Assembly (NCBI GenBank): GCA_020912385.1
Contig: CP087218.1
Span: 868,001 to 932,000 of the forward strand
Direction of reading: 5' to 3'
Length of the DNA: 64,000 nt
DNA from: Neofusicoccum parvum
Taxonomy: Eukaryota > Ascomycota > Dothideomycetes > Botryosphaeriales > Botryosphaeriaceae
Shown here piece by piece: positions 1 to 26,386 of the stretch; within the stretch, counting starts at the first letter, position 1, and each line of letters opens with the position of its first letter. The notes beneath the pieces were generated by a model. It was not told the origin of the DNA. It ran no database searches and was given only the letters and a program-made list of their open reading frames with translations. Both the position numbers and the translations under genes were made by a program.

Positions 1-691
1 AGGACACCATATCGAAAGGTTTTGACGAATTGGAGCGCCACAAAAGCACCCTCACCCTCTGCGTCTTGGGCAATCTCGGCGGCTTGATTGAGCGAATTGA
101 CTCAAGGCTGGAGAGCGGCATTCCGGACCTCCAATACCAGGTGGAAAAGATCGAGAGAAGCCTCCGAACCTACTCTGGTATCACAAACGAGAGCCGAAGA
201 ATTAGGGACGGTCTCACCGGAACCACCATGCCACGCGCCGGAAGAGATCATGGCGTCGGTCAGGAGAGCAAAGAGGTACGAAAAGCCACAAAGTGACACC
301 ACAGACCCGTCGCTGATCCAAATGATAGCTTGCAATCATAGGCGCACGCGCTATTGATGATGGAGATGACGACTCCACGCTCGTAGCTTTGAGTCCGCAC
401 TCAACAGACCTGCAAGCCCTGGACGCCGAACAGCTCTCGATCGCCCAAGCCAACGAAGGAATAACGCAGAATCAGGACTCAAATGCCTCAGCCGAGACGC
501 GCATATACAAAAATAACGCAGCTTTTGAAGAATCTTCCCAGCTAAACGGTACTATCGGATCGCCCATGCCAGGAGAGCGTCGTATTGCTTACTCGCACTG
601 GAACAACAACAAATCAGGGGACCAGAGCAGACAAATCAACGGAGATATCCTCGACGCAAACTTTGCTTCACTTTTCTTCGTGAGGGGATGA
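1..691 (+). CDS. HRAM-type amyloid-motif protein A, 5' truncated by window edge
   Basis: The 3' part of a two-exon gene: exon <1-275, intron 276-328 (53 nt, donor GTACGA, acceptor TAG), last exon 329-691. The intron is phase 0 and sits at the same place as in the paralogue at 4601-5694. The visible N-terminal part (GFDELERHKSTLTLCVLG, then IERIDSRLE) matches residues of that paralogue, so it should carry the same helical N-terminal domain. The second exon ends in two repeats, YKNNAAFEESSQLNGTIG and HWNNNKSGDQSRQINGDIL, with the NG pairs 31 residues apart, then an aromatic tail ending in LFFVRG. In fungi such paired motifs (HET-s prion domain and related HRAMs) fold as amyloid and activate N-terminal death domains; that role is inferred here. 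The start codon lies outside the window. Confidence 0.75.
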
Positions 692-1701
692 GTTCTCAAG
701 AGGCGGCGTCTTCATACGGTCAACGATTTATGATCATGCATCGGTAGTGTTGTGCACAAACACAAGGAGCACGGCGTAGTCTTCCTTACTTCCGGATTTG
801 TACTTGTATATCTACGCAGCCATTTGTACTTCGTATCAAGCTGTTGCTCGCAACATAGGAAAGCTTCCACTAAAGAGCAGTGTTGTGTTCTTGAACTTTT
901 GTTCGTGGCGTCATCTCCAGCAGACGTTACAGGCACAGCCCTCCCACGCTACCAGAGCTCCGTTCGATGATATCACGTCCCCACCGCTGCCTTCCGACTA
1001 AGGGGAAATACGAACAAGATACCAGCCCCCTGTGGCTATGTAGAGGTGGCAAGGTATTGTGGCGCGTTGAGTGTGCCTTGCAGACTGAAGTGCGGTGTGG
1101 CAACGCGCTGGGAAGACCCCTGCGCCGCGCGGCTCATATTGGCCTCTGTCTGCCCCATCACCTTTTGAATTTGGGACGTGGCACACATACATACATAGGC
1201 TACCTCTTCACCCACTGAATAGCCTTATGGGAGAGTTTGATGGCTTCTAGTGTGCCGAAAAATCGAGTAAGCGCCAACAGTCGCCATCTCGTTCCTTACA
1301 TCTTGTTCCTGGCAAAAGCGGATACTGTCGTTGTTCCTGCTGGTACCTACGGATGTCAAGCTCCGCCTCATCTGTTGCTTCCCTTCAAGTCCCCAGCCCG
1401 TCGTGACTGTTGGTCACTAGCTACAGAAGGGGATTCGTGACAAGCTAAAAGCTTATGTCTGTGGTGACTATGTCGTATCAGGTGGTCTATTAGCACGGGA
1501 AGCTGTCGCGGCTGTGTAATAGTAGCGCGATCCTTCGTCTCTCATGTCAACATACCTTACTGCTGTCAAGGCATTCAGGCCACCGGCCTGCCATATGGCC
1601 CTTTGCCCCCCCTCCCCCCCCTTTAAATACGTTCCATGTGCTCGACCACTCGTATCCAGTACAACCTGCATCACTCCCTTGCGAGGTAACGCCAAATACC
1701 G
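692..1701. other. Gene-poor interval
   Basis: Several short overlapping ORFs occur on both strands, but none has protein-like composition or consistent splice signals. There is a pyrimidine-rich stretch with C runs around 1608-1622. I see no gene here. Confidence 0.5.
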
Positions 1702-1857
1702 ATGTCGACGTACCACGGTCATGGCCAAACAGCCGAGAGGAACACAGCTGGTGGGCAATCCAGGCAACTCAACGGGAATGCCTACGACGGGTTCGTGCCA
1801 CTGCAAACTCCCCACCACGCGCCGCGCTTCCGACCGCTTGCACACAAAGCCTCGTGA
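1702..1857 (+). pseudogene. Orphan HRAM-like repeat in a 51-codon ORF
   Basis: A short ORF that opens just after a stop codon and reads MSTYHGHGQTAE, then RNTAGGQSRQLNGNAYDGF, then ends at TGA. The second string fits the repeat found in the neighbouring amyloid-motif genes (compare GDQSRQINGDIL in gene A), but only one copy is present and no N-terminal domain is seen. It may be a decayed copy or an exon of an unresolved gene. The downstream sequence GTGAGA...CTAACA...ACAACAG resembles an intron but would be only about 28 nt. Confidence 0.4.
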
Positions 1858-2011
1858 GACCTAACACAGCTTTCACAACAGGTCCACATTCCTCACCTTG
1901 CCACACGCACTCGGGCTCAGCCAGCTGCACACCCACACCCACAACTTCAACGCCCACATCCACATCTACGTCATCCAAGTCCCCGGCCCCTCTCCATCGC
2001 AGCCTGCGCAC

Positions 2012-2383
2012 ATGTTCTTCATCCCTCACAGCTTCGACATCCCCGACGAAGACTCGGACACCGACTCCTCGTCCGACGAAGCGCCCACCTCCGCGCCGGA
2101 GCGAGCCGGCAGCGACGGGCTGCAGCCGCCGCCGCCGCCGCCACCCTCAGAGCAGCCTTCCGGGAGCGATGCCGCCGCGACCACCAGCCAGCCACGCGAA
2201 CCCCTCCCCCCGGCCGCCGGGGTGGTGAGGGTCAACACGGAGGTGCTTCGGGCTCTGACGGTCAGCCCCTTCGGCCGGTTCTGGACGCTGTTCGGCGTGT
2301 GCCCGTGGCGGCACTTTGCCGTGGCCATCGTGTTCATCCCACTCTTCACCACCGCGGCTTTTGGCTACGTTGTGCTGAGCTGA
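2012..2383 (+). CDS. Small acidic protein with C-terminal membrane anchor, hypothetical
   Basis: A 123-aa ORF. The start chosen is the ATG at 2012 (MFFIPHSFDIPDEDSD) rather than upstream in-frame ATGs, because the sequence before it is low-complexity and not protein-like. The N-terminal half is acidic and Ser/Pro-rich (DEDSDTDSSSDE, then a run of seven prolines). The last 24 residues are hydrophobic (HFAVAIVFIPLFTTAAFGYV), as in a tail-anchored protein. I do not recognise a family. The strongest support is the combination of an acidic region with a clean C-terminal transmembrane segment; it could still be a chance ORF in GC-rich DNA. Confidence 0.45.
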   Translation: MFFIPHSFDIPDEDSDTDSSSDEAPTSAPERAGSDGLQPPPPPPPSEQPSGSDAAATTSQPREPLPPAAGVVRVNTEVLRALTVSPFGRFWTLFGVCPWRHFAVAIVFIPLFTTAAFGYVVLS

Positions 2384-2955
2384 GCGGTAGAGCGGTGCGG
2401 CGTTGTGGCGTTCGACTTTTGTCGGCGGCTGCGCGCGCGCGTCTCGGAAATGTGCCGGGTGTTGGGAGAAGGGTGTCTGCAGACAGCTGCAGGAAGAGTT
2501 CATCATTGCGAGTGATGATCACTGGGAAGGATGTAAATAACAGTTGCGGGGGTGATGCCTTGACTTGTACATAATGATTGCAGTGGGTTGGATGAGTTCA
2601 GCCTCTCTGGAGCAAGGCGTCCGCGTGCGTTCACATGGCGGCATAGATTTGTTTTCAAGCGTTGTTTGTCTGATTCCAGTTTCAATTCCAAATATGTCAT
2701 TCACCGTAATAGAGATTCACTTGAGGGAACCCAAAGTCCATCCTCCTTCCTCCATCAAAAATCCCAGACTCGCAATGAGAGAATTCAGGTTAGTGCCCTT
2801 GCTACCATCGAGAGACGAACTCAATCCACCCCAGGCGCAGAAGAACGACCTTATGGGCCTGGTTTCGGGTTTTGTTGAGGGTTCTGCCAACCTGCCGGTG
2901 GGTTGATCGGGAAGTTGGTAGTTTTGTTCGGTGGAGACTGGTGTGGTTGGGATTG
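2384..2955. other. Intergenic, nothing recognised
   Basis: Between the small membrane-anchor ORF and the 3' end of the minus-strand proline-rich gene. Only short ORFs without domain signatures are seen; it probably holds the two 3' ends. Confidence 0.5.
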
Positions 2956-3681
2956 CTAGGGACTGTTGCGGTTATTGAAGAACCCGTCTGGCACTCTGGG
3001 GGTGCTGCCATTCAGCTGACTACCCGCGCCTCCTACATGGTTGTCGGCATAGTCCCTCGGGAACATTGGTTGAGCCCCGACGTTGCCATTGATCTGATTA
3101 CCTTGGTCAATCACCGTGTTCCTATTATAGCTGTCCCTATTCACATGAGACTCCGTGGATCTGGTGAGATGAGCGCCCGGATAAGGCTTCGTCCCAAATT
3201 GAATCTGCAGGCTTGGGTTTTGGGATATCTGTTGTGGATTCTGGTGTCCTGAAGGCGACACGGGACCCTGTACTGCGGATGGTACAGGAAACTGTCCCGC
3301 AGGAGGAATAGGAGAATTTCCTGCAGGAGGAACAGAAAACTGTCCTGCGGGAGGAGCAGGAAACTGTCTTGGAGGAGGAGCAGGAAACTGTCCTGGAGGA
3401 GTAGCAGGAAACTGTCCTGGGGAGGTGATAGGAAGTTTTCCTGCCGGCGGCACAGCGAACTGTCCTTTAGGTGTTGGCTGAGGAGTAGGGAGTCCTCTTC
3501 CGCCAGGGGGCCACCCGCTTGGTTGTTGCTCGTTGTTCATCTCGGTGAAATCGTTCTCTGGCGGTTGGGGCTGCGAAATGAGTCAGTACAGTTCCCGAAG
3601 TTATAGAAGTTATGGATTCACCCAAGGTCTGCCTGATATGACGGTTGATGGCTTCAATTTCCCAGGTCTGCCCCCAGCCAT
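2956..3681 (-). CDS. Proline-rich octapeptide-repeat protein with paired HRAM-type motifs
   Basis: Two exons: 3681-3622 and 3570-2956, with a 51-nt intron (donor GTGAATCC, branch CTGAC, acceptor TTTCGCAG), phase 0. The product is 224 aa and starts MAGGRPGKLKPSTV. Residues about 56-119 are eight tandem octapeptides of type GQFPAPPA. The C-terminus carries two amyloid-type repeats, YNRNTVIDQGNQINGNVG (about 169-186) and YADNHVGGAGSQLNGS (about 194-210), with NG pairs 26 residues apart, and ends Asn-rich (GFFNNRNSP). No helical death domain is present. A Pro-rich spacer joined to an HRAM-like pair is an architecture I do not know; it might act as an adaptor, a decoy or a cell-wall/scaffold protein. 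The splice structure is good; the function is inference. Confidence 0.6.
3274..3465 (-). repeat. 24-bp minisatellite, eight units, coding for octapeptides
   Basis: Eight consecutive 24-bp units inside the proline-rich gene. Translated units include GQFAVPPA, GKLPITSP, GQFPATPP, GQFPAPPP, RQFPAPPA, GQFSVPPA, GNSPIPPA and GQFPVPSA. Units differ at several positions but keep length and frame, as expected of an expanding coding minisatellite whose copy number may vary between strains. Confidence 0.85.
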
Positions 3682-4600
3682 GGCTACTATGGTCCATCAT
3701 TTATCATGACCTGATAGCAGGAGCCGCATATTCAGCTGTGATTATAGGCAAAAGTGTGCAGAAAGTGGCTGAATGACCCCTCCAAATGTGTGTTCTCACA
3801 TGTCCTTCCGCAAGGTTGGCCATCAGCAATTAAATGCGTACTCGGGCCGATTGGATAGAGACTGCGTCGATAAGACGGCAAGACCGAATAGTGATGTTTC
3901 TTTTCGACTCTAGCACTCAGCTCGGAAGCAGTGCCACTACCTATGGAGTTGCGTGGTCGTACAAAAGTCACAACCCTGGAGGTTAATGATCCGAGAATGG
4001 GGGTTTGTTCCGTTCGGAAGGTCGTTTGTGCGTGCTGCAGCTTCAAGGGAAAGAAGGCGTTTGACCTGCGGCGATCGGGAGATGTGTGATAGACATTGGG
4101 GCGCAGTCAGGCTGAAGTTCAGCCTTGCGGTGAAGTGAAGCGATGCGGCTGAGAAGCTGCGGATAACTTCCTTGATATGTGATAAATAACCTAAGCGACG
4201 TCAGCGTGACACGCCGAGAGCTCGTTTCGAGGCATGCATGGTCAGTCATTGCATTGCATGCTCAGCGTACACCTGTTTCAAGCGTTATGCATGCTCGGCT
4301 TTGGATTCGGCAAATTACCTGCCAGTTCATAGGCACACGACCCCGCACGCAAAATAATGTCTCTCCGCCTTGCGGCACAGGTTATCGTATCCCAACAATC
4401 CCTCTTCCTGTTTCGCCTCGTTAATCCGGCAATCGCGGCGATTGGTATTGTGATTTCGCAGCAAGGCGTCCTTCACAGCGTAACACAAGAAGAGCTCTGA
4501 TTCGCTGCGCCAGCACACCGTAAAAAAGAAGTGGCGGCGCCTCCCATCTGATTCCAATGTAGCTTCCGTCTCCCCTCGCCCCGCAAACACCGAAGGGGCC
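3682..4600. other. Divergent upstream region of two amyloid-motif genes
   Basis: A 919-bp region between the start of the minus-strand proline-rich gene and the plus-strand effector-like gene at 4601. ORFs here are short and unconvincing. It probably holds both promoters, which would allow co-regulation; no specific operator was identified. Confidence 0.4.
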
Positions 4601-5694
4601 ATGTCAGGCATTGAGGCTATCGGAGCCATCGCCAGCATTTCACAGCTCGTTCAGTACTCAGCAACTCTCATTTACAAGCTCTATGAGTTATACCGGGATG
4701 TCGAACAGTCCGGAGAGCGCTACTGTCGTTACAAAGAGCAGATCAACCAACTCATCAAGATAGCACGCCTGGTCGAGTCCTTAGAAGAAGTATTGCGGTC
4801 CGAAATTGTTGCCACGCACGTCCAGGCCCTCATCAAGACTACCGAGAACATCGACAAAGCTCTTAGGCAAGGATATGTCGGAGATATGTCGAAAAAATGG
4901 AAGAAATGTCTTAAAGCCTGGCAGTGGAGCAAGGCTGAGGAAGCCATCCTTCGGGGCTTTGAAGAGCTTGAGCGCGACAAAAGCTGCCTTACCCTGTGCA
5001 TTCTCGGCACGTACGGGAGCCTGATAACGCGGATAGATAAAAACCTGGAGGACGGCCTCCCTCAGATCCAGAGTCAAGTTGGCGCTCTCGACCGAACACT
5101 GAGGACTTGTACCGGGCTTGTCGAAGAAGGCCGCAAAATTGGAAACAGCCCTCACACTATTTTTAGTTCTTACTGCTCGAGTCGGAAGTGCAAAAAGATG
5201 CACAAAGCCAGCGGGGACAACAAAGAGGTACGTATATGTCTTTCTTTGCCGATTCTGCAATTATTGACGTACTGTAGCTCGTGATCCTTGGAGCGCGAGC
5301 CATTCAAGCGAAACCGAATAACTCGACCAGCGACAATCACCCTCAAACCCCCAGCACGGACGAATGCTCTGAGAAGCTCGCCGATTCCGGGGTCCTCGTT
5401 CAAACCCCCACCAGCGCCTACGGAGACAGCGATAGCGGATACTGCGCACTCTCCGAAGGCACTCTGACGAACGAGCGTTCTCCACCAACTCGATCGTGGT
5501 CAGAGAACACGGCCTTCGACGACGCCATTCAAATCAACGGTTGCGTTGGGAAGAAGGATGCGGTGGAGGATTCAATCACCAGATGCCAATGGAGCAATAA
5601 CGAGGCTCGGGGCCAAAGCAACCAAGTGAACGGGGAGGTCCTGGACACGAGCTTCGCCGCCGTCTTCTTCTCACGTAAGACGGTGGATGCTTGA
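4601..5694 (+). CDS. HeLo-like/SesA-type N-domain protein with C-terminal HRAM-type pair (protein B)
   Basis: Two exons, 4601-5227 and 5278-5694, with a 50-nt phase-0 intron (GTACGT...TTATTGACGTACTGTAG); 347 aa. The N-terminus MSGIEAIGAIASISQLVQYS is a hydrophobic, small-residue-rich helix of the kind that opens HeLo-like (HELL) and SesA domains. A predicted helical bundle follows to about residue 190 (ERYCRYKEQINQLIKIARLV, ELERDKSCLTLCILG). A Ser/Thr-rich linker leads to repeats WSENTAFDDAIQINGCVG (about 283-300) and CQWSNNEARGQSNQVNGEVL (about 312-331), NG pairs 31 residues apart, then DTSFAAVFFSRK. In known systems an NLR with a matching N-terminal motif templates the C-terminal amyloid, and the N-domain then permeabilises membranes. 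That activity is inferred by family resemblance; the exact N-domain family needs a profile search. Confidence 0.75.
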
Positions 5695-6544
5695 CGCAAC
5701 TGTGGCTTCAGCTTCTCCACCAAGCACGATCTCCGAATGACAGAGAGAGAACTCCCCAGGAGCTCGATATCTGCTGCTCACTGTCAATTTCACACCCTCC
5801 TTTGCGGTGGCTCTTTTGGATTCACGTCACAATTCTTAATTTTATCATGGTGCACGTTCAAACACTGCGGGATTGGAGTTACAATTAGCATGGTTGAATA
5901 AACCTACTATTTTCAGCCTTGCCTGAAACTGCGTGATTTCAACGTCTGACCACCTTATCACGACGCCAAGCTGACCGGAAGGCAAAAAGGCAATCAAGAG
6001 GATTGGCAAGGCTCTTTTATGACACCCTGGGGTTACAACGAGGCTTTTCACAAGGCATACTCATGCACGTGGGCGTTTTGAGAAAGCAATTGATGCCAAT
6101 GGCACTATGCTGCGTGCACAGCAGGGTGAGATGGACGAGGCTGAGACGTCAGGCGTGAACGCATGGGGGCCGGGCCGGGCGGGATGCAGCCGCGGCTGAT
6201 GCACATCAGCACAAGCGAGGCGTTTTTCCAGTGGGTCAGGCCGCCGTTCAAACCAGGATCAAGGCGTCGATCATCGGTCTCGTGGTATAGCCAGTTGCGG
6301 TTCTGGTTTTGAGCCGATTGCTGTCTGCAAGCCTGGAAATTGCTTGCTTACAATTGCATGACGACGAGTACGGTTTTCACACTGTGGGTTTACCAAGAAC
6401 TTTGTGGAGTAACAATTTCTTTATAATATTACCGGCAAAGCCATACATTGAGAAATAAATGAACCTGATGTTGTTCCGAGGACTAAGTGTCCCTCGTGGA
6501 TGCGTAATCAACGACTATTGGATGCTTCGTGTCCGGAGGTTCCA
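5695..6544. other. Intergenic between convergent amyloid-motif genes
   Basis: An 850-bp, fairly AT-rich spacer. No ORF with domain-like composition and no further copy of the N-N...Q-x-N-G motif was found on either strand. Confidence 0.45.
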
Positions 6545-6907
6545 TCAACCTTGCATGAACAGGCAAGGAAAAACACTCGCGTCAAGAATGTCGCCGTTTA
6601 TTTGTTTGCCGTCATTGCCTGAATGATTATTGGTCCACTTGGAGTGCGAAAAGTAGGGATCCGTCGCCTTGTAGGTGCCAATATTACCGTTTAGCTGAAA
6701 AGCACCGTCAGACGCAGTATTATTCTTGTACTCTCGGATTGGCTGAGACAGAGAACTTGGCTTTTTATCGACATGCAACCCGCTGCAGGTCAAAGCTTTC
6801 TCTTCAGTCTCACCGTTGCGCAGCTTTGCTTGGCTCTGTAGGCCAACCTTGCGTGGTGTCGACCGTTGGAAATAATCTCCCTCGAGATCCGCGGAAAATG
6901 TGGTCAT
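6545..6907 (-). CDS. Short HRAM-type protein (C), intact C-terminal exon of a decayed paralogue
   Basis: A 120-aa ORF from ATG at 6907. It ends with repeats YKNNTASDGAFQLNGNIG and SKWTNNHSGNDGKQINGDIL (NG pairs 31 residues apart), then DASVFPCLFMQG. The layout is the same as the last exon of proteins A and B. Directly upstream is an acceptor-like site (CTAAC...CGTTACAG), but the joined frame meets a TAG just before this ATG. The exon is therefore either expressed alone as a motif-only protein or is the surviving part of a pseudogene. The motif pair has no stop or frameshift. Confidence 0.5.
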   Translation of the reverse strand: MTTFSADLEGDYFQRSTPRKVGLQSQAKLRNGETEEKALTCSGLHVDKKPSSLSQPIREYKNNTASDGAFQLNGNIGTYKATDPYFSHSKWTNNHSGNDGKQINGDILDASVFPCLFMQG

Positions 6908-7422
6908 GATCTACGTATTGACGCTGATTTTTGACTGTAACGCAAGTTAGCAACCCATGAAATATAGGTTGCGGTTTCTTCCGAGAATGATTTCTCGCCC
7001 AAGGGCTGGCGTTCATACCTCCTTTTTTTTCGAATGTGTGTTTCCTTGAAGTGTTATTTGTCTGCAGGCAGACGACTGGCAAGAGCAGAGGTCTTCTGCG
7101 TCTGAGGCTCCGGTAGTTGCTCGTAGGTTCGTCTCGAAATTTCCAACCTTGACTGGAGGTCTTGAAGGGTATTATCAAGCTTTGAATCAATCACCGAGAT
7201 GGTGCTGCCCTAATTAAATAAAACATAGGAGGCAAGGATGATTTGGATCTGCTTCAAGGCCTTCGATCCCTTCATAGCCTTTCGGGACTCGAGGCTTATA
7301 AAAGGAGAGAAATCACCCCATACGTTTGGTGAGAGCGTAGTACAAATGGAGACTTCGCTAGGGTACGCATAAGCGCCAGAACAAGAGAGCCTAGAGCTGA
7401 GTCGAATGAAAGGATTTGCCAT
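6908..7422 (-). pseudogene. Decayed N-terminal domain of an HRAM-type gene
   Basis: The minus strand upstream of the ORF at 6545-6907 still resembles proteins A and B. GSTISVIDSKLDNTLQDLQS matches GSLITRIDKNLEDGLPQIQS of protein B, and a shifted frame reads KGYEGIEGLEADP against RGFEELERDKS. In-frame stops (TAG before GSTISV, TAA after LPADK, TAG before the downstream ATG) and a frame change break it. A donor-like GGAG|GTATGA and acceptor CGTTACAG remain at the expected intron position. The N-terminal death-domain part is thus very likely non-functional. Confidence 0.55.
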
Positions 7423-8615
7423 TGCGCGATAAAGATACTACGTTCGGGCGGTGAGTGCTGCGGGATGGTCAGAACATGCCCAACAGCTACCCTCTGTGTT
7501 CTCTCTTTGTAAGATGGCAAATGTCGGCGCAGAACACAGCGTCGGGCAACCAAGCGTCCAGTGCGACGTGAGCGGCAGGCGTCGACGAACTTATCAGGCA
7601 TCGGTAATCTCATGGCGTGGCTGGCGAGGCTGAGAAGTCCAGATGCCGGCGGCACCTGCCGATGGATCAGGTTGATAACTGTGGGTGCCTCGAAAGCCAG
7701 GCTAATTGGCAGGAGCTGTGTTTGCCTCGTTAAGGCAGAAGGTCAGATGGCGAGGGCGGATTGTGCACTGGCCACATTCGTCGGCAAAGGGTGGCTCTCC
7801 AGCCAAGTTTGGCCAGCAGAGCCTCCCTCTTCACGAGCCGACCGCCTTCCCGTTTACGCAGCCTTGCTCTTGTAACATCGTCGCCATCACCCCGCACGAT
7901 TTTTCCATGGGCGTCTCGATCGATCGCGGCCTCTCGGTGGCCCATATCACCACCGCCATGTGTCCGACCGCCCTGAAAGTTGTGTAACCGTCTCCGTGCC
8001 GCAACCCGGGAGCTGCGCATACTGGGTGTCGTGCTGCGGCTCGGAATCAAAAGAGCAAGGGTTGCGTTGTGCGATAAGCACAGAAGTCTATCATGCAGCC
8101 GTCCAACACGCAGCATGACTTGTTGCCTTCAACCTCCTGCGAGCCCTCTACAGCCAACGATGGGACCATCTCGCTTGCCGTTTGATAGCCGAGGCGTGGC
8201 AGCCATGCGTGTTCGCTACGAATCGAGGGCCAGGCGTGAGATTGCAAGGAGCTGGTTGCTGCCCAAACCACAAGCCCATGCTCTTGCAGTCCCAGTCATG
8301 AACAATGGTCAATCGATATCTGCAGTTGATGGCTGTCCATGTGGTTCTCTGCGTATGGACCGCAGCAAGAAAGCCACACCGCTGCCTTCTTTTTCCCGCA
8401 GTATCTGACATTGCGGCTCTTCTCGCAGCTCAATGATAAATAGAGAAGCCGGTTGGTGTTTGGAATGAAAAGAACAGTGGCAGTCCCAACTCGAAAACTA
8501 AATTGACAGAAAGCCAGGGCCCATTTTCCTCATCCAAGTAAGTGGTCTATCCCTCCCTCTACCGTTTCGGCAAGCTGAAAATAAGTGCTTCCGAAAAAGT
8601 CAGCTTTTTGAATCA
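7423..8615. other. Intergenic, nothing recognised
   Basis: Overlapping ORFs of 70-140 codons occur in several frames with no family resemblance and low-complexity composition. It presumably holds the 5' regions of the decayed gene and of the gene at 8616. Confidence 0.45.
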
Positions 8616-9020
8616 ATGCAGAGCTGGAAAGACGATAGGAGAAAAAGAGTGGAAGTGACTCAAGCGATGCAGAATAAAGCAAGCTCCTCAAGCCCTGGAG
8701 CTTTAAGCTTGACGGGAGCGCCCGCTCAGCCTGAGACGGCAGGCACCGTGACCTCTGGACGCCAGAATACCAGCACAAACACTACTCGCGAATGGGACAA
8801 AAATCGCAACAACGGACCCGGCACCCTGGTCAATGGAGGCTTTGGTGCACCCAAGCAAGGTGCCCAGCTGCAGGGCGGAAAATGGGTCGAAAACGACAAC
8901 GAAGCTGGGGGCCTTCTGGTGAACGGCGATATCAATGACACAGAGAGGTTTCCACTTCATTCAACAAGCAAGAACAACAAGTCTGAGGATTCTATCTCCA
9001 AGCCCGAGCCTGATAAGTGA
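8616..9020 (+). CDS. Short HRAM-type protein D without a helical death domain
   Basis: A single-exon 134-aa ORF. A basic start (MQSWKDDRRKRVEV) and a Ser/Thr/Pro-rich linker precede the repeats EWDKNRNNGPGTLVNGGFG and KWVENDNEAGGLLVNGDIND, NG pairs 30 residues apart. The motif is more divergent than in A-C: V or L replaces the usual Q before [ILV]-N-G, but the Trp, the Asn pair and the NGD ending are kept. The tail is Ser/Lys/Asp-rich. A possible intron upstream (GTAAGTGG near 8537) could add an N-terminal exon, but no domain is visible there. It may be a motif-only regulator or decoy, or half of a signalling pair whose partner is elsewhere. Confidence 0.6.
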   Translation: MQSWKDDRRKRVEVTQAMQNKASSSSPGALSLTGAPAQPETAGTVTSGRQNTSTNTTREWDKNRNNGPGTLVNGGFGAPKQGAQLQGGKWVENDNEAGGLLVNGDINDTERFPLHSTSKNNKSEDSISKPEPDK

Positions 9021-9224: not shown

Positions 9225-9716
9225 TCAAACACCAGGAGAAAGCCTTGTAGGATTTGTATCCGCGTTCTTGATTCCCATACTCGAAGATAGCATGGTGACG
9301 GGGATTGGAGACACAGGTGAGATTGATGTGAATGCCACAGGTTCGGAGAGATCTCGCTTCAGCCTGGAATCCTCATTGAAGTAGAGCGACAGCCCGATTA
9401 TAAGGCAAAAGGCAACAAGGATGACACCGGCTGCAATCATAATTCGTGTCGGGTGTTCGCACTCCAATTGGAAGCCCCGCAGTCTCGGAAAGCTGATGTG
9501 GCGTCGGAGCTGACTTCGATATCGATTGGAAGCGTCTCCTGGGTCAGGTGGGGTTTCTTCGTCCTTACCATGAGGCTGAAGCGCGGCAGCGGCATTATTA
9601 GACGCTAGACCTGGAGTGCGTTGGGTGTGGACGGAGGTATGAGTACTAAAGTTGATGTAATTGTCAGCATAGAGCGTGCTAGTCTGATTGTAGTGCCCGA
9701 ACGAAGAGGTTAGCAA
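9225..9716 (-). CDS. Single-pass membrane protein, C-terminal part, start unresolved
   Basis: An open minus-strand frame with an S/T/P-rich extracellular-type region, a basic stretch (RYRSQLRRH), a clear transmembrane helix (IMIAAGVILVAFCLIIGLSL) and a cytoplasmic-type tail. No ATG opens this frame at 9716. A donor GTGAGC with TTGCTAACC and acceptor ACAATCAG just upstream suggest an earlier exon (Ser/Thr-rich, reading ETGTPYSS in one frame), but phases do not fit cleanly. The family is not recognised. Its position beside the amyloid-motif genes is noted without functional meaning. Confidence 0.4.
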   Translation of the reverse strand: MLTSSFGHYNQTSTLYADNYINFSTHTSVHTQRTPGLASNNAAAALQPHGKDEETPPDPGDASNRYRSQLRRHISFPRLRGFQLECEHPTRIMIAAGVILVAFCLIIGLSLYFNEDSRLKRDLSEPVAFTSISPVSPIPVTMLSSSMGIKNADTNPTRLSPGV

Positions 9717-9749: not shown

Positions 9750-11037
9750 TGTCTCACTTGCACCTCGACTGGTTGTCTCTATTGGTGTCGCCGTTAATCA
9801 AGATGCTATCTGAGATCTCTATTAGCGTCGTTGTGATCAAAGCGCCTCAGAGCTTGCTGCTTTAGGATAGAGTGCGATGGCGCTATGGGAACATAAAGCG
9901 GGAAAATTCAATGACGCCCGAATGAGCGGTTGTTATTGAAGCTGCCCTGAAGGTTTACAACAGTTAAGATAAGGCGGCTAAAACGCTATGTATACTTACT
10001 CAATGGCTACTTGTGAGCCTTGAAGCGGAGTAAAAAGGCGTTCGTTCGTAGTCATGGTTACTCTTGAGCATTTGCTGCGCCCAATTAGCCCCAATCATCT
10101 TAATTACATCTAAGAGACCTCTCTGAGCTGCCTTGCTAAGTTAATACCCTGATCCTGGACTACTTGTGATAAGTCCAAGCGTCTCCCTCCAAAACCACTC
10201 CAAAAACCGTCTTAACTTCCAAGAGCTAGGTGATGTACAATACGTACCAATTTATGGAGTATGGGAGCTTGCTAAAGCGGTGCTTGAAATTCAAAGAGGA
10301 TATGGCTGAAAAGACTTTCCAGAAGCAGTAGGTCGATGGAGGCACAACAAGGGAAGGCTCGGCAGCTCATCCGAAATGACAATCTTTGCCACCACGAAGT
10401 CTGCATACTCTCGCCAAGACGAGAATGTTCCCTCTGAATGAGCACGTGCCGAAGGTTGCCTCTGGGTGGGGAAATGTCTCAGTGCAGGGGGAACGCCGGA
10501 CCGCCGGTGAGCTTTAGAGGATTTGGCTTCGCCTAGGCTTCTAACGTGAGGGCAAAAACGGCGCCAAAGATGGTAAATGTCAGCCTCATCTGGTACGTGG
10601 ATAGGGACTTCTTTTAGACTTCAAGTCTAGTCTACCTTGCTGGGAGGCTGAAAGGAAGGCGATCAAGGCATAGAAATGCCTGGAGGAGCCATGTTGATCT
10701 GCAACCACCTCGTATATGCAATAGCACCATGATGAGAAGTAAAACCCACGGTCATGCGTGTGCTACTATGGATCTGCAAAGTGATCGGGTGTGCCATGCC
10801 GGTAAGGCTTATTTGGAGGGCCGAGCTATCATCACTCTCTCGCTATCCCTGGTATGCTCTCCATAGCCATACGTCATTCGTCTGAAAGCAATCAGTATTT
10901 CGCGCAAAGCATGCTCCGCCACCTACACTCTCTTCACGGTTAAAAGCCTCGTCACGTCGCGGCAACCACATCTACAAAGAGCTGGAAAGAGGCTGCCCTG
11001 TGGAGCGAATGTAACCTCATTACCCACCCCATCACGC
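9750..11037. other. Gene-less interval left of the monooxygenase gene
   Basis: A 1.3-kb stretch of lower GC than the flanking core genes. No long ORF was found. On the minus strand at 9780-9845 one frame reads ILINGDTNR after stop-rich sequence, reminiscent of the repeat ending LLVNGDIN in protein D; it may be a decayed motif or chance. The right part presumably contains the monooxygenase 3' UTR. Confidence 0.35.
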
Positions 11038-24940: not shown

Positions 24941-26386
24941 GAGAGACGAGTAGCGGCCCACCTCCGACGCCTAAACGGGGTTATAAAGGGTATGCCCCCA
25001 GCGGCAGCGGCAAAGGCCGCGCACGCATGCATGATCCCAGTCGCCACGTATGGCGCGGAAGTCTGGTATGAAGGAACAACAAAGCCAATACCATACACTA
25101 CTAGGACGGTAGTACCGAGACATTCGTACCATATGGCGACTATAGATAGGGCGCTACGAACAGCAGCCCGGGCTGTAATACCCGTATGGAGAACGACCCC
25201 GATCCCGGTACTCCACCGCGAAACAGGGATCCCACCGGCAAGCGTGCTCCTACAGCAGATCCAGAGAAGAGCATCACTTCGTTTACGGCTGTTAGACAAG
25301 GCACACCCACTCGTTGGGCGGACAATGATTATAAGAGGACGCTGGGGTTCAGCTCCAAAGACCCTTAATCTAAAGCCAAAGGTCACAAGGCTGCAGAGAA
25401 TGGCGCAGCTTGAAGAGGAATGCGAAAGACCCCAGCTCCTACAGCAGAGCTACACCAATACCCCCCAAAGGACAACGCAGGGAAAAGAGAGGGGAGCAAA
25501 GGAATTTATAGAATCACTGAAACAAGACCCACCGGGAACGATACATATCTATTCGGACGGCTCAAGCATGGACTCGAAAACCGCCTGGGCCTTCGTTGCC
25601 TACAGACACGGCGCGCGGATCCACACCCAAAGCGGAAGCCTAAACAAGGCGGAGGTGTTTGACGCGGAAATCCGAGGCGCAGCAGAAGGACTCGCGTGGG
25701 CGGCTACTAACGCAGAAGCTCTACAGGCTACGAAAGTCACGCTATGCATAGACAACACCTCGGTCATACAGGGCATAGACGGACACACCCCGGCCAGCTC
25801 ACAGAGCCAATTCATGAGGCTAAAGAGCATGAGACAGGAACTCCGAATCCCAGTAGAGACTAGGTGGTGCCCTGGTCATATGGGAATCACGGGAAACGAG
25901 GAGGCCGATCAGCTAGCGAAGGCAGCTATCGGTCTACAGAACGATGAACAGGGGCCGGCAACCGTATCCTGGGCAAGGCGGAGAAACAGGGAGGAGAGGT
26001 CGCGAGTCTACGAGGCCTGGTGGGAGGAGCACCAAACACCAGCCTACCGACACCTAGGCCTTAAGATAAAAAAGGGAAGGAACCCCGAGCTAGCACTATC
26101 AAGGCAGACACTATACCGGCTACTAGCCGAAAGAACCGGCCACGGGGATTTCGCCGAGTATCACAGACGCCTAGGGCATAAAAAGGCGGAACTTACCTGC
26201 AAATGCGGCGCTGAGAAGGCGCAATGGCACTTTATCGACTGCCGCCTGGCAATGGGCTGGGAGTATCCAGGAACTGCGATGAGGGCGGAGAAGATTAGGA
26301 ACCTCCTCGGACCAACGGGGTGGTTTCTTTTTCAAAACCTCCTTGAATCAACGGCGGTGTTCCGGGGGAGATGCGAGGAACCGTGA
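24941..26386 (+). pseudogene. LINE ORF2 C-terminal fragment with RNase H domain
   Basis: Open frame with no start of its own; the first in-frame ATG is at 24992. The beginning (VAAHLRRLNG, then MIPVATYGAEVWYEG) is the thumb/C-terminal part of LINE reverse transcriptase. The RNase H domain shows the acidic residues in order: IYSDGSS, AEVFDAEIRGAAEGL, LCIDNTSVI and GNEEADQLAKAA. The C-terminus has a CCHC-like CKCGAEKAQWHFIDC. Polymerase and endonuclease parts are missing, so it cannot transpose by itself. Confidence 0.9.

Follow-up and report, generated by a model that had tools for sequence, protein, structure and literature searches.

A cluster of HRAM-like double-repeat genes in Neofusicoccum parvum with single-repeat transmembrane proteins in place of a nearby NLR

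In the fungal systems built on HET-s-related amyloid motifs (HRAMs), such as nwd2/het-S and fnt1/hellf (HRAM5), a helical protein carries two C-terminal repeats (r1 and r2) of about 21 residues, a partner carries a single N-terminal repeat (r0), and the genes are clustered. The matching of r0 to r1-r2 within a gene cluster is a published signature linking NOD-like receptors (NLRs) to effectors (available text of PMC4518210 and PMC3321046). We analysed 64,000 nucleotides of the plant-associated fungus Neofusicoccum parvum (contig CP087218.1, here C13:868001-932000, hereafter the window) and found at its left edge a gene cluster with the same arrangement of repeats, clustered genes and helical proteins. 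Unlike the HRAM systems, it has no NLR match nearby, r0 lies on transmembrane (TM) proteins, the cluster holds many units and motif-only proteins, N/Q/N predominates at core positions 8, 16 and 18, and the helical domain is not recognised as HeLo, HELL or sesA. The stronger novelty is the presence of single-repeat transmembrane proteins in place of a nearby NLR, a layout that recurs at two other loci of the genome.

Clustered genes with a common short motif also characterise the sigma (sesA/sesB/het-eN) and PP (HELLP/SBP/PNT1) systems, in which one receptor serves several effectors (available text of PMC5485727), and the sigma motif consists of threefold GxGxQFNxx / GGTQNINT units (PMC3321046, as far as its available text goes). 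The cluster described here resembles both in its clustered genes with a common motif, but the motifs differ, the partner there is an NLR, and no Pfam match was found here. Pfam contains models of the sigma/Ses_B motifs; in searches for these families, the C3 and C18 tails and the C3/C18 transmembrane sequences given (the two other loci, see below) matched no family at E<=1, and the C13 units gave only unrelated weak matches.

A second point of comparison comes from insects. The receptor PGRP-LC sits in the membrane and carries its ectodomain at the C-terminus. In the immune deficiency (IMD) pathway, the intracytosolic cRHIM of the receptor PGRP-LC or PGRP-LE is held to seed the Imd amyloid, and Drosophila Pirk is a motif-bearing modulator (available text of PMC9496462 and PMC9531809). 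Our loci are similar in outline, with an N-terminal motif plus a membrane helix at three loci, a likeness of architecture only: the motif in insects is of RHIM type, kingdom, effector type and ectodomain differ, and we claim no sequence relation. The accessible portions of reviews and surveys of fungal amyloid signalling name NLRs as the receptors (PMC7889193, PMC9815663, PMC12881547, PMC10197012). Literature searches showed neither such a fungal membrane receptor nor this fungal family among the titles and abstract openings listed, a coverage outside which preprints and most subscription journals fall, and absence from print is unproven.

The cluster spans about -5,550 to 9,850 in window coordinates (about 15 kb) and extends left beyond the window start into the upstream sequence L003, where L003:9658 is window coordinate -342. 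From left to right, the order is up1, TM B, up2, gene A, TM A, the 2956 unit, gene B, the 6545 unit, the 8616 unit and TM C. The features are as follows:
L003:4453-5553, + strand: up1, double-repeat
L003:6899-7623 (r0 open reading frame 6899-7017), + strand: TM B, single N-terminal repeat
L003:7858-8304, - strand: up2, double-repeat
L003:9658 (window -342) to 275, + strand: gene A exon 1, helical domain (window part 1..275; intron 276-328)
329..691, + strand: gene A exon 2 (r1 500-562, r2 593-655, aromatic tail behind r2)
1702..1854, + strand: TM A N-terminal exon, single repeat (r0 1726-1788; held-out score exceeds background)
1921..2383, + strand: TM A 3' exon (C-terminal membrane helix 2321-2377; 1921 is one of several possible acceptors)
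2956..3570, - strand: 2956 unit, exon 2 of a Pro-rich double-repeat protein (r1 3073-3135, r2 2995-3057)
3622..3681, - strand: likely exon 1 of the 2956 unit (intron 3571-3621, GT..AG, in frame)
4601..5227, + strand: gene B exon 1, helical domain, no Pfam match
5278..5694, + strand: gene B exon 2 (r1 5491-5553, r2 5584-5646)
6545..6907, - strand: 6545 unit, motif-only double-repeat open reading frame (r1 6674-6736, r2 6581-6643)
7123..7272, - strand: decayed helical-domain stretch with one internal stop, upstream of the 6545 frame (E=0.001 by tblastn over a 94-kb region, the helical exon of gene A being the query)
8616..9020, + strand: 8616 unit, motif-only double-repeat protein with divergent (LVNG) repeats (r1 8787-8849, r2 8877-8939)
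9225..9716, - strand: TM C, membrane-helix protein (helix 9387-9443), a distant paralogue of TM B (E=0.0016)
9757..9846, - strand: possible degenerate r0 (DSILINGD), uncertain, immediately upstream of TM C and lacking an in-frame ATG

The five window units of the original prediction exist, each with two tandem repeats of about 21 residues, and reading the DNA again located 10/10 repeats at exact coordinates; up1 and up2 bring the total to seven double-repeat units. That prediction was right to describe effectors and motif-only proteins as a family gathered at a single site. Its literal pattern, N-N-x(7-9)-[QL]-[ILV]-N-G, matches only five distinct repeats (six matches, two of them overlapping), whereas N at HRAM position 8 plus [QL]-[ILV]-N-G is found in all ten. 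In 20 first-order Markov copies of the window, the literal pattern had a mean of 0.05 matches and a maximum of 1. The claimed position behind a helical domain stands for two of the five units (1-691 and 4601-5694); 6545-6907 has only the decayed stretch upstream, and no such domain was found for 2956-3681 and 8616-9020. The single-repeat open reading frames (ORFs) at 1702-1854 and L003:6899-7017 had been overlooked.

The repeats stood out in a position-matrix test in which each unit was left out in turn and 285,067 sequence windows were scanned, those overlapping known repeats being dropped: 16/16 repeats of nine units outscored all the remaining ones. The same hold-out with a profile hidden Markov model (HMM) was weaker, with no match for the 8616 unit and three background ORFs above up1, the most upstream unit. 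Searches of proteins over the whole genome (44 Mb, 18 contigs) with the gene B tail and with up2 retrieved only cluster members, plus two weak matches (E 0.08 and 2.4) without such repeats by eye. Four known tails (2956, 8616, C3 and C18) escaped the B-tail query. A genome-wide search with the short r0 of TM A returned itself only, missing even the near-identical r0 of TM B; these two queries are therefore too blunt for excluding distant carriers.

As in the HRAM systems, the spacing of the repeats fits the frame of positions 5, 8, 10, 16, 18 and G19. Indeed, G19 is present in 17/17 repeats (14 r1/r2 and three r0, one of them from P0015, the counterpart of TM B in Botryosphaeria dothidea), position 5 is W or Y in 14/17 and position 10 is A or V in 12/17. 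Aromatic residues follow r2, and Q16 is as in HRAM5. The loops between r1 and r2 measure 10, 10, 10, 9 and 5 residues in the window and 9 and 9 upstream, so that 6/7 are within the 6-18 residues found in 154/155 HRAM proteins (PMC4518210). AlphaFold predicted the r1-r2 tail as a two-rung beta-solenoid, the fold that the original prediction had in mind, and the top PDB match of this model in Foldseek was HELLF, followed by HET-s, with weak scores. A PDB sequence search with tail and motif profiles gave nothing, apart from one unrelated match at E 1.6. Charge complementarity between r1 and r2 was also considered and gave no signal (6 opposite versus 4 like pairs across the seven units).

The weakness of the fold scores and the polar core positions would also suit repeats that form a soluble, non-amyloid solenoid or an adhesion module. 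We hold this to be very unlikely, as the Foldseek neighbours are HELLF and HET-s, and the asymmetry between r0 and r1-r2 in neighbouring genes is like that of known amyloid systems.

TM B carries one N-terminal repeat and one membrane helix (KD19 3.19). Its counterpart P0015, independently annotated, preserves the repeat-then-helix order, with identities of 33/50 in the membrane block, 9/20 in r0 (SRQ[LV]NG kept), 24/70 in the middle and 14/38 after the helix. As modelled here, TM A would combine a repeat exon with a C-terminal membrane helix (KD19 2.24), and the Neofusicoccum parvum database protein P0014 matches its 3' exon almost letter for letter by eye.

The same pairing is found elsewhere in the genome. 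Distant paralogues of the helical exon lie at C3:105 kb (E=8.5e-10) and C18:244 kb (E=0.0014), with a mutual E=7.6e-21. Both helical proteins end in a double repeat whose motif is related but not the same, and the divergent neighbour of each carries an N-terminal single repeat and a membrane helix:
L072 (C18:240001-250000), 4075-5067, - strand: C18 helical double-repeat gene
L072, 5883-6548, + strand: C18 r0-transmembrane gene, divergent (canonical GTAAGT..TTAG intron, Cys-rich end)
L073 (C3:101001-111000), 4188-5203, + strand: C3 helical double-repeat gene
L073, 2834-3509, - strand: C3 r0-transmembrane gene, divergent

At C18, the GTAAGT..TTAG intron links the r0-transmembrane part to a Ser/Thr-rich stretch that contains a Cys-rich module, CxWGCPGWSC. 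The ORF behind the C3 transmembrane exon has the same module (40% identity, E=1.9e-5), the exact splice not being fixed, and the Cys-rich end is probably common to the two genes. Positive charges favour an N-in orientation at C18 (4 vs 2) and C3 (3 vs 1) but point neither way for TM B and TM C (3 vs 3). Given N-in, at these two loci only, r0 would face the cytosol and the Cys-rich part would be extracellular. A database search with the C18 transmembrane protein found none among 463 candidates.

The r0 of each locus scored best with the tails of its own locus. The C13-type r0s (TM A, TM B and P0015) scored 29-49 with 6/7 C13 tails and 22-24 with 8616, against 20-27 with the C18 and C3 tails; the C18 r0 scored 61 with its own tail, 49 with C3 and 16-34 with C13, and the C3 r0 51 with its own tail and <=31 elsewhere. 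Among 7,078 ORFs, the C18 tail as query ranked the C18 transmembrane ORF first and the C3 tail second, ranks 3-8 being chance ORFs. With the C3 tail, the top seven ORFs were system members from the three loci, including the C3 transmembrane ORF in fourth place, the seventh being tied with a chance ORF.

This recurrence bears on a different account, that of a self-propagating allorecognition array: a prion-like double-repeat set, like HET-s/HET-S, in which the motif-only proteins would be non-toxic seeds, strain variation would define self and non-self, and the transmembrane proteins would only anchor aggregates. The several motif-only double-repeat ORFs, one of them by a decayed helical stretch, do recall the loss of a toxic domain, and the lack of a nearby NLR match agrees with such an array. 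Nevertheless, the paired r0-transmembrane gene recurs at C3 and C18, where no motif-only array was noticed among the ORFs listed for 10 kb, and the repeats of gene B look constrained in its Lasiodiplodia orthologue; on balance we consider this account unlikely.

The genome contains 58 NACHT and 13 NB-ARC matches at E<=0.01, and the nearest of them lies about 560 kb from the repeat genes at C13, 466 kb from those at C3 and 367 kb from those at C18. NLRs are the usual r0 carriers in print, adjacent to 98/155 HeLo-related proteins (PMC4518210), and the real trigger could be an NLR located far away that bears r0 at its N-terminus, with the transmembrane proteins as parallel effectors or unrelated neighbours. 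Fifty loci, holding 51/58 NACHT and 4/13 NB-ARC matches with only about 1.5 kb of flank, were scanned and contained no comparable repeat, and no NACHT locus among them had a repeat-like scoring window; 7/58 NACHT and 9/13 NB-ARC matches lay outside the scan. The r0-transmembrane genes adjoin double-repeat genes at 3/3 loci studied, with locus-matched motifs; we rate the distant trigger as somewhat less probable still than the allorecognition array. Judged by eye, the NLR ORFs that scored high with the C18 tail resemble chance alignments, as do ten loose-pattern matches in the NACHT loci.

The candidate effectors are the products of genes A and B. The splice of gene A preserves the frame and gives 326 residues, and the helical exons of the two genes are 43% identical. 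Their N-terminal domain of about 190 residues is predicted as all-helical in the gene B orthologue P0002 of Lasiodiplodia theobromae (predicted local distance difference test, pLDDT, about 70). Over the full protein, gene B is 58% identical to its orthologue P0001 and 55% to P0002; the named relatives of the helical proteins are from Lasiodiplodia and Diplodia. In P0001 and P0002, r1 and r2 are identical to gene B at 12-13/19 positions, against 51% and 31% in the pre-repeat linker, 42% and 33% in the inter-repeat loop, and 66% and 72% in the helical domain. The repeats of gene B thus look constrained, being better kept than linker and loop, though the stretches are short.

At E<=1, neither gene A nor gene B matched the Pfam families HeLo, HeLo-like or sesA, and none of these was among the 25 of 41 families listed for 16 members; since these matches are missing, the cell-death label of the domain is one that we infer from architecture. 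Scanned against Pfam and NCBIfam, the cluster proteins and the helical family gave only weak, unrelated matches among those listed. The fold search of the helical domain retrieved BAR, FAT, NINJ1 and designed bundles, an unspecific result, with no HeLo or MLKL among the best 50 matches listed, which does not exclude them.

Taken together, we regard it as an evenly balanced proposition that the cluster is an NLR-less, HRAM-like amyloid-signalling signalosome, in which membrane r0 proteins template helical r1-r2 effectors and motif-only proteins act as modulators. In this mechanism, the C-terminal r1-r2 pair of the helical proteins A and B would be a two-rung beta-solenoid prion-forming domain, and the small transmembrane proteins would present a single matching r0 at a cytosolic N-terminus. 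Clustering at the membrane, at C3 and C18 probably once something engages the extracellular Cys-rich C-terminal part, would stack the r0 motifs. The stacked motifs could then template the r1-r2 tails and turn on a putatively membrane-active helical domain, while the motif-only double-repeat proteins (2956, 8616, 6545 and up2) may amplify or cap the polymer.

A broader proposal, which we advance more tentatively, is that fungal cell-surface amyloid receptors (single-pass proteins whose cytosolic N-terminus bears r0 and which, in two cases, have a stalked Cys-rich ectodomain) fire helical cell-death-type effectors by prion templating, bypassing NLRs, and that a polar-core HET-s-like superfamily diversified per locus, one locus having grown into an effector/modulator array. 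If true, a transmembrane r0 carrier by an r1-r2 protein at three loci would mean membrane-driven prion templating in fungi, as in insect IMD, and would offer a simple two-gene system for studying the perception of external cues and the killing of cells in fungi. With its N/Q/N core, the motif would also test the sequence tolerance of the HET-s-type solenoid.

Some results weigh against the signalosome. Position 8 is N in 15/17 repeats, position 16 is Q in 15/17 and position 18 is N in 17/17, where the HRAM rule has hydrophobic residues. None of the seven double-repeat proteins matched PF11558 at E<=1, although only 38/155 HRAM proteins match it; over the whole genome this family gave nothing either, but the controls were silent too and that search is uninformative. 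Moreover, the annotated model of P0014 (window 1637-2383, + strand) begins upstream and splices over the r0 exon of TM A, reflecting either a mis-annotation or an alternative transcript. The interpretation given in the original prediction is partly supported. Tandem C-terminal repeats, HRAM spacing, G19, a predicted two-rung solenoid and conserved repeats speak for its HET-s/HRAM logic; membership of a described HRAM family does not follow, with polar positions 8, 16 and 18 and no PF11558 match, and its decoy or self/non-self roles are guesses. We thus call the cluster HRAM-like by layout and predicted fold, and do not assign it to a described family.

The 6545 unit is perhaps an effector stripped of its helical domain, and the helical relic with a stop upstream of it, together with the doubtful r0 of TM C and the unclear splice of TM A, might indicate a tandem array that has largely decayed, leaving one or two live genes. 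The r0-like stretch of TM C was the top background ORF in 5/9 HMM hold-outs, yet with only 7.8-10 bits (independent E-value 0.28-1.5). All seven double-repeat ORFs are open, however, as are the exons of genes A and B, whose introns are in frame, and counterparts of gene B and TM B exist in other genera; general decay is thus improbable to about the same degree as the soluble module.

Among the remaining members, up1 and up2 are homologous outside the repeats too (E=1.9e-20). The N-terminal part of up1 (L003:4453-5200, + strand) is long and without any Pfam match, possibly another effector domain. Very weak further matches to the helical domain lie at C17:216365, C5:399355, C2:1659556 and C12:379340 (E 0.4-4.1). 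By eye, the products of ORFs at window 24992-26386 (+ strand) and L072:1262-3031 (+ strand) resemble retroelement RNase H-type proteins.

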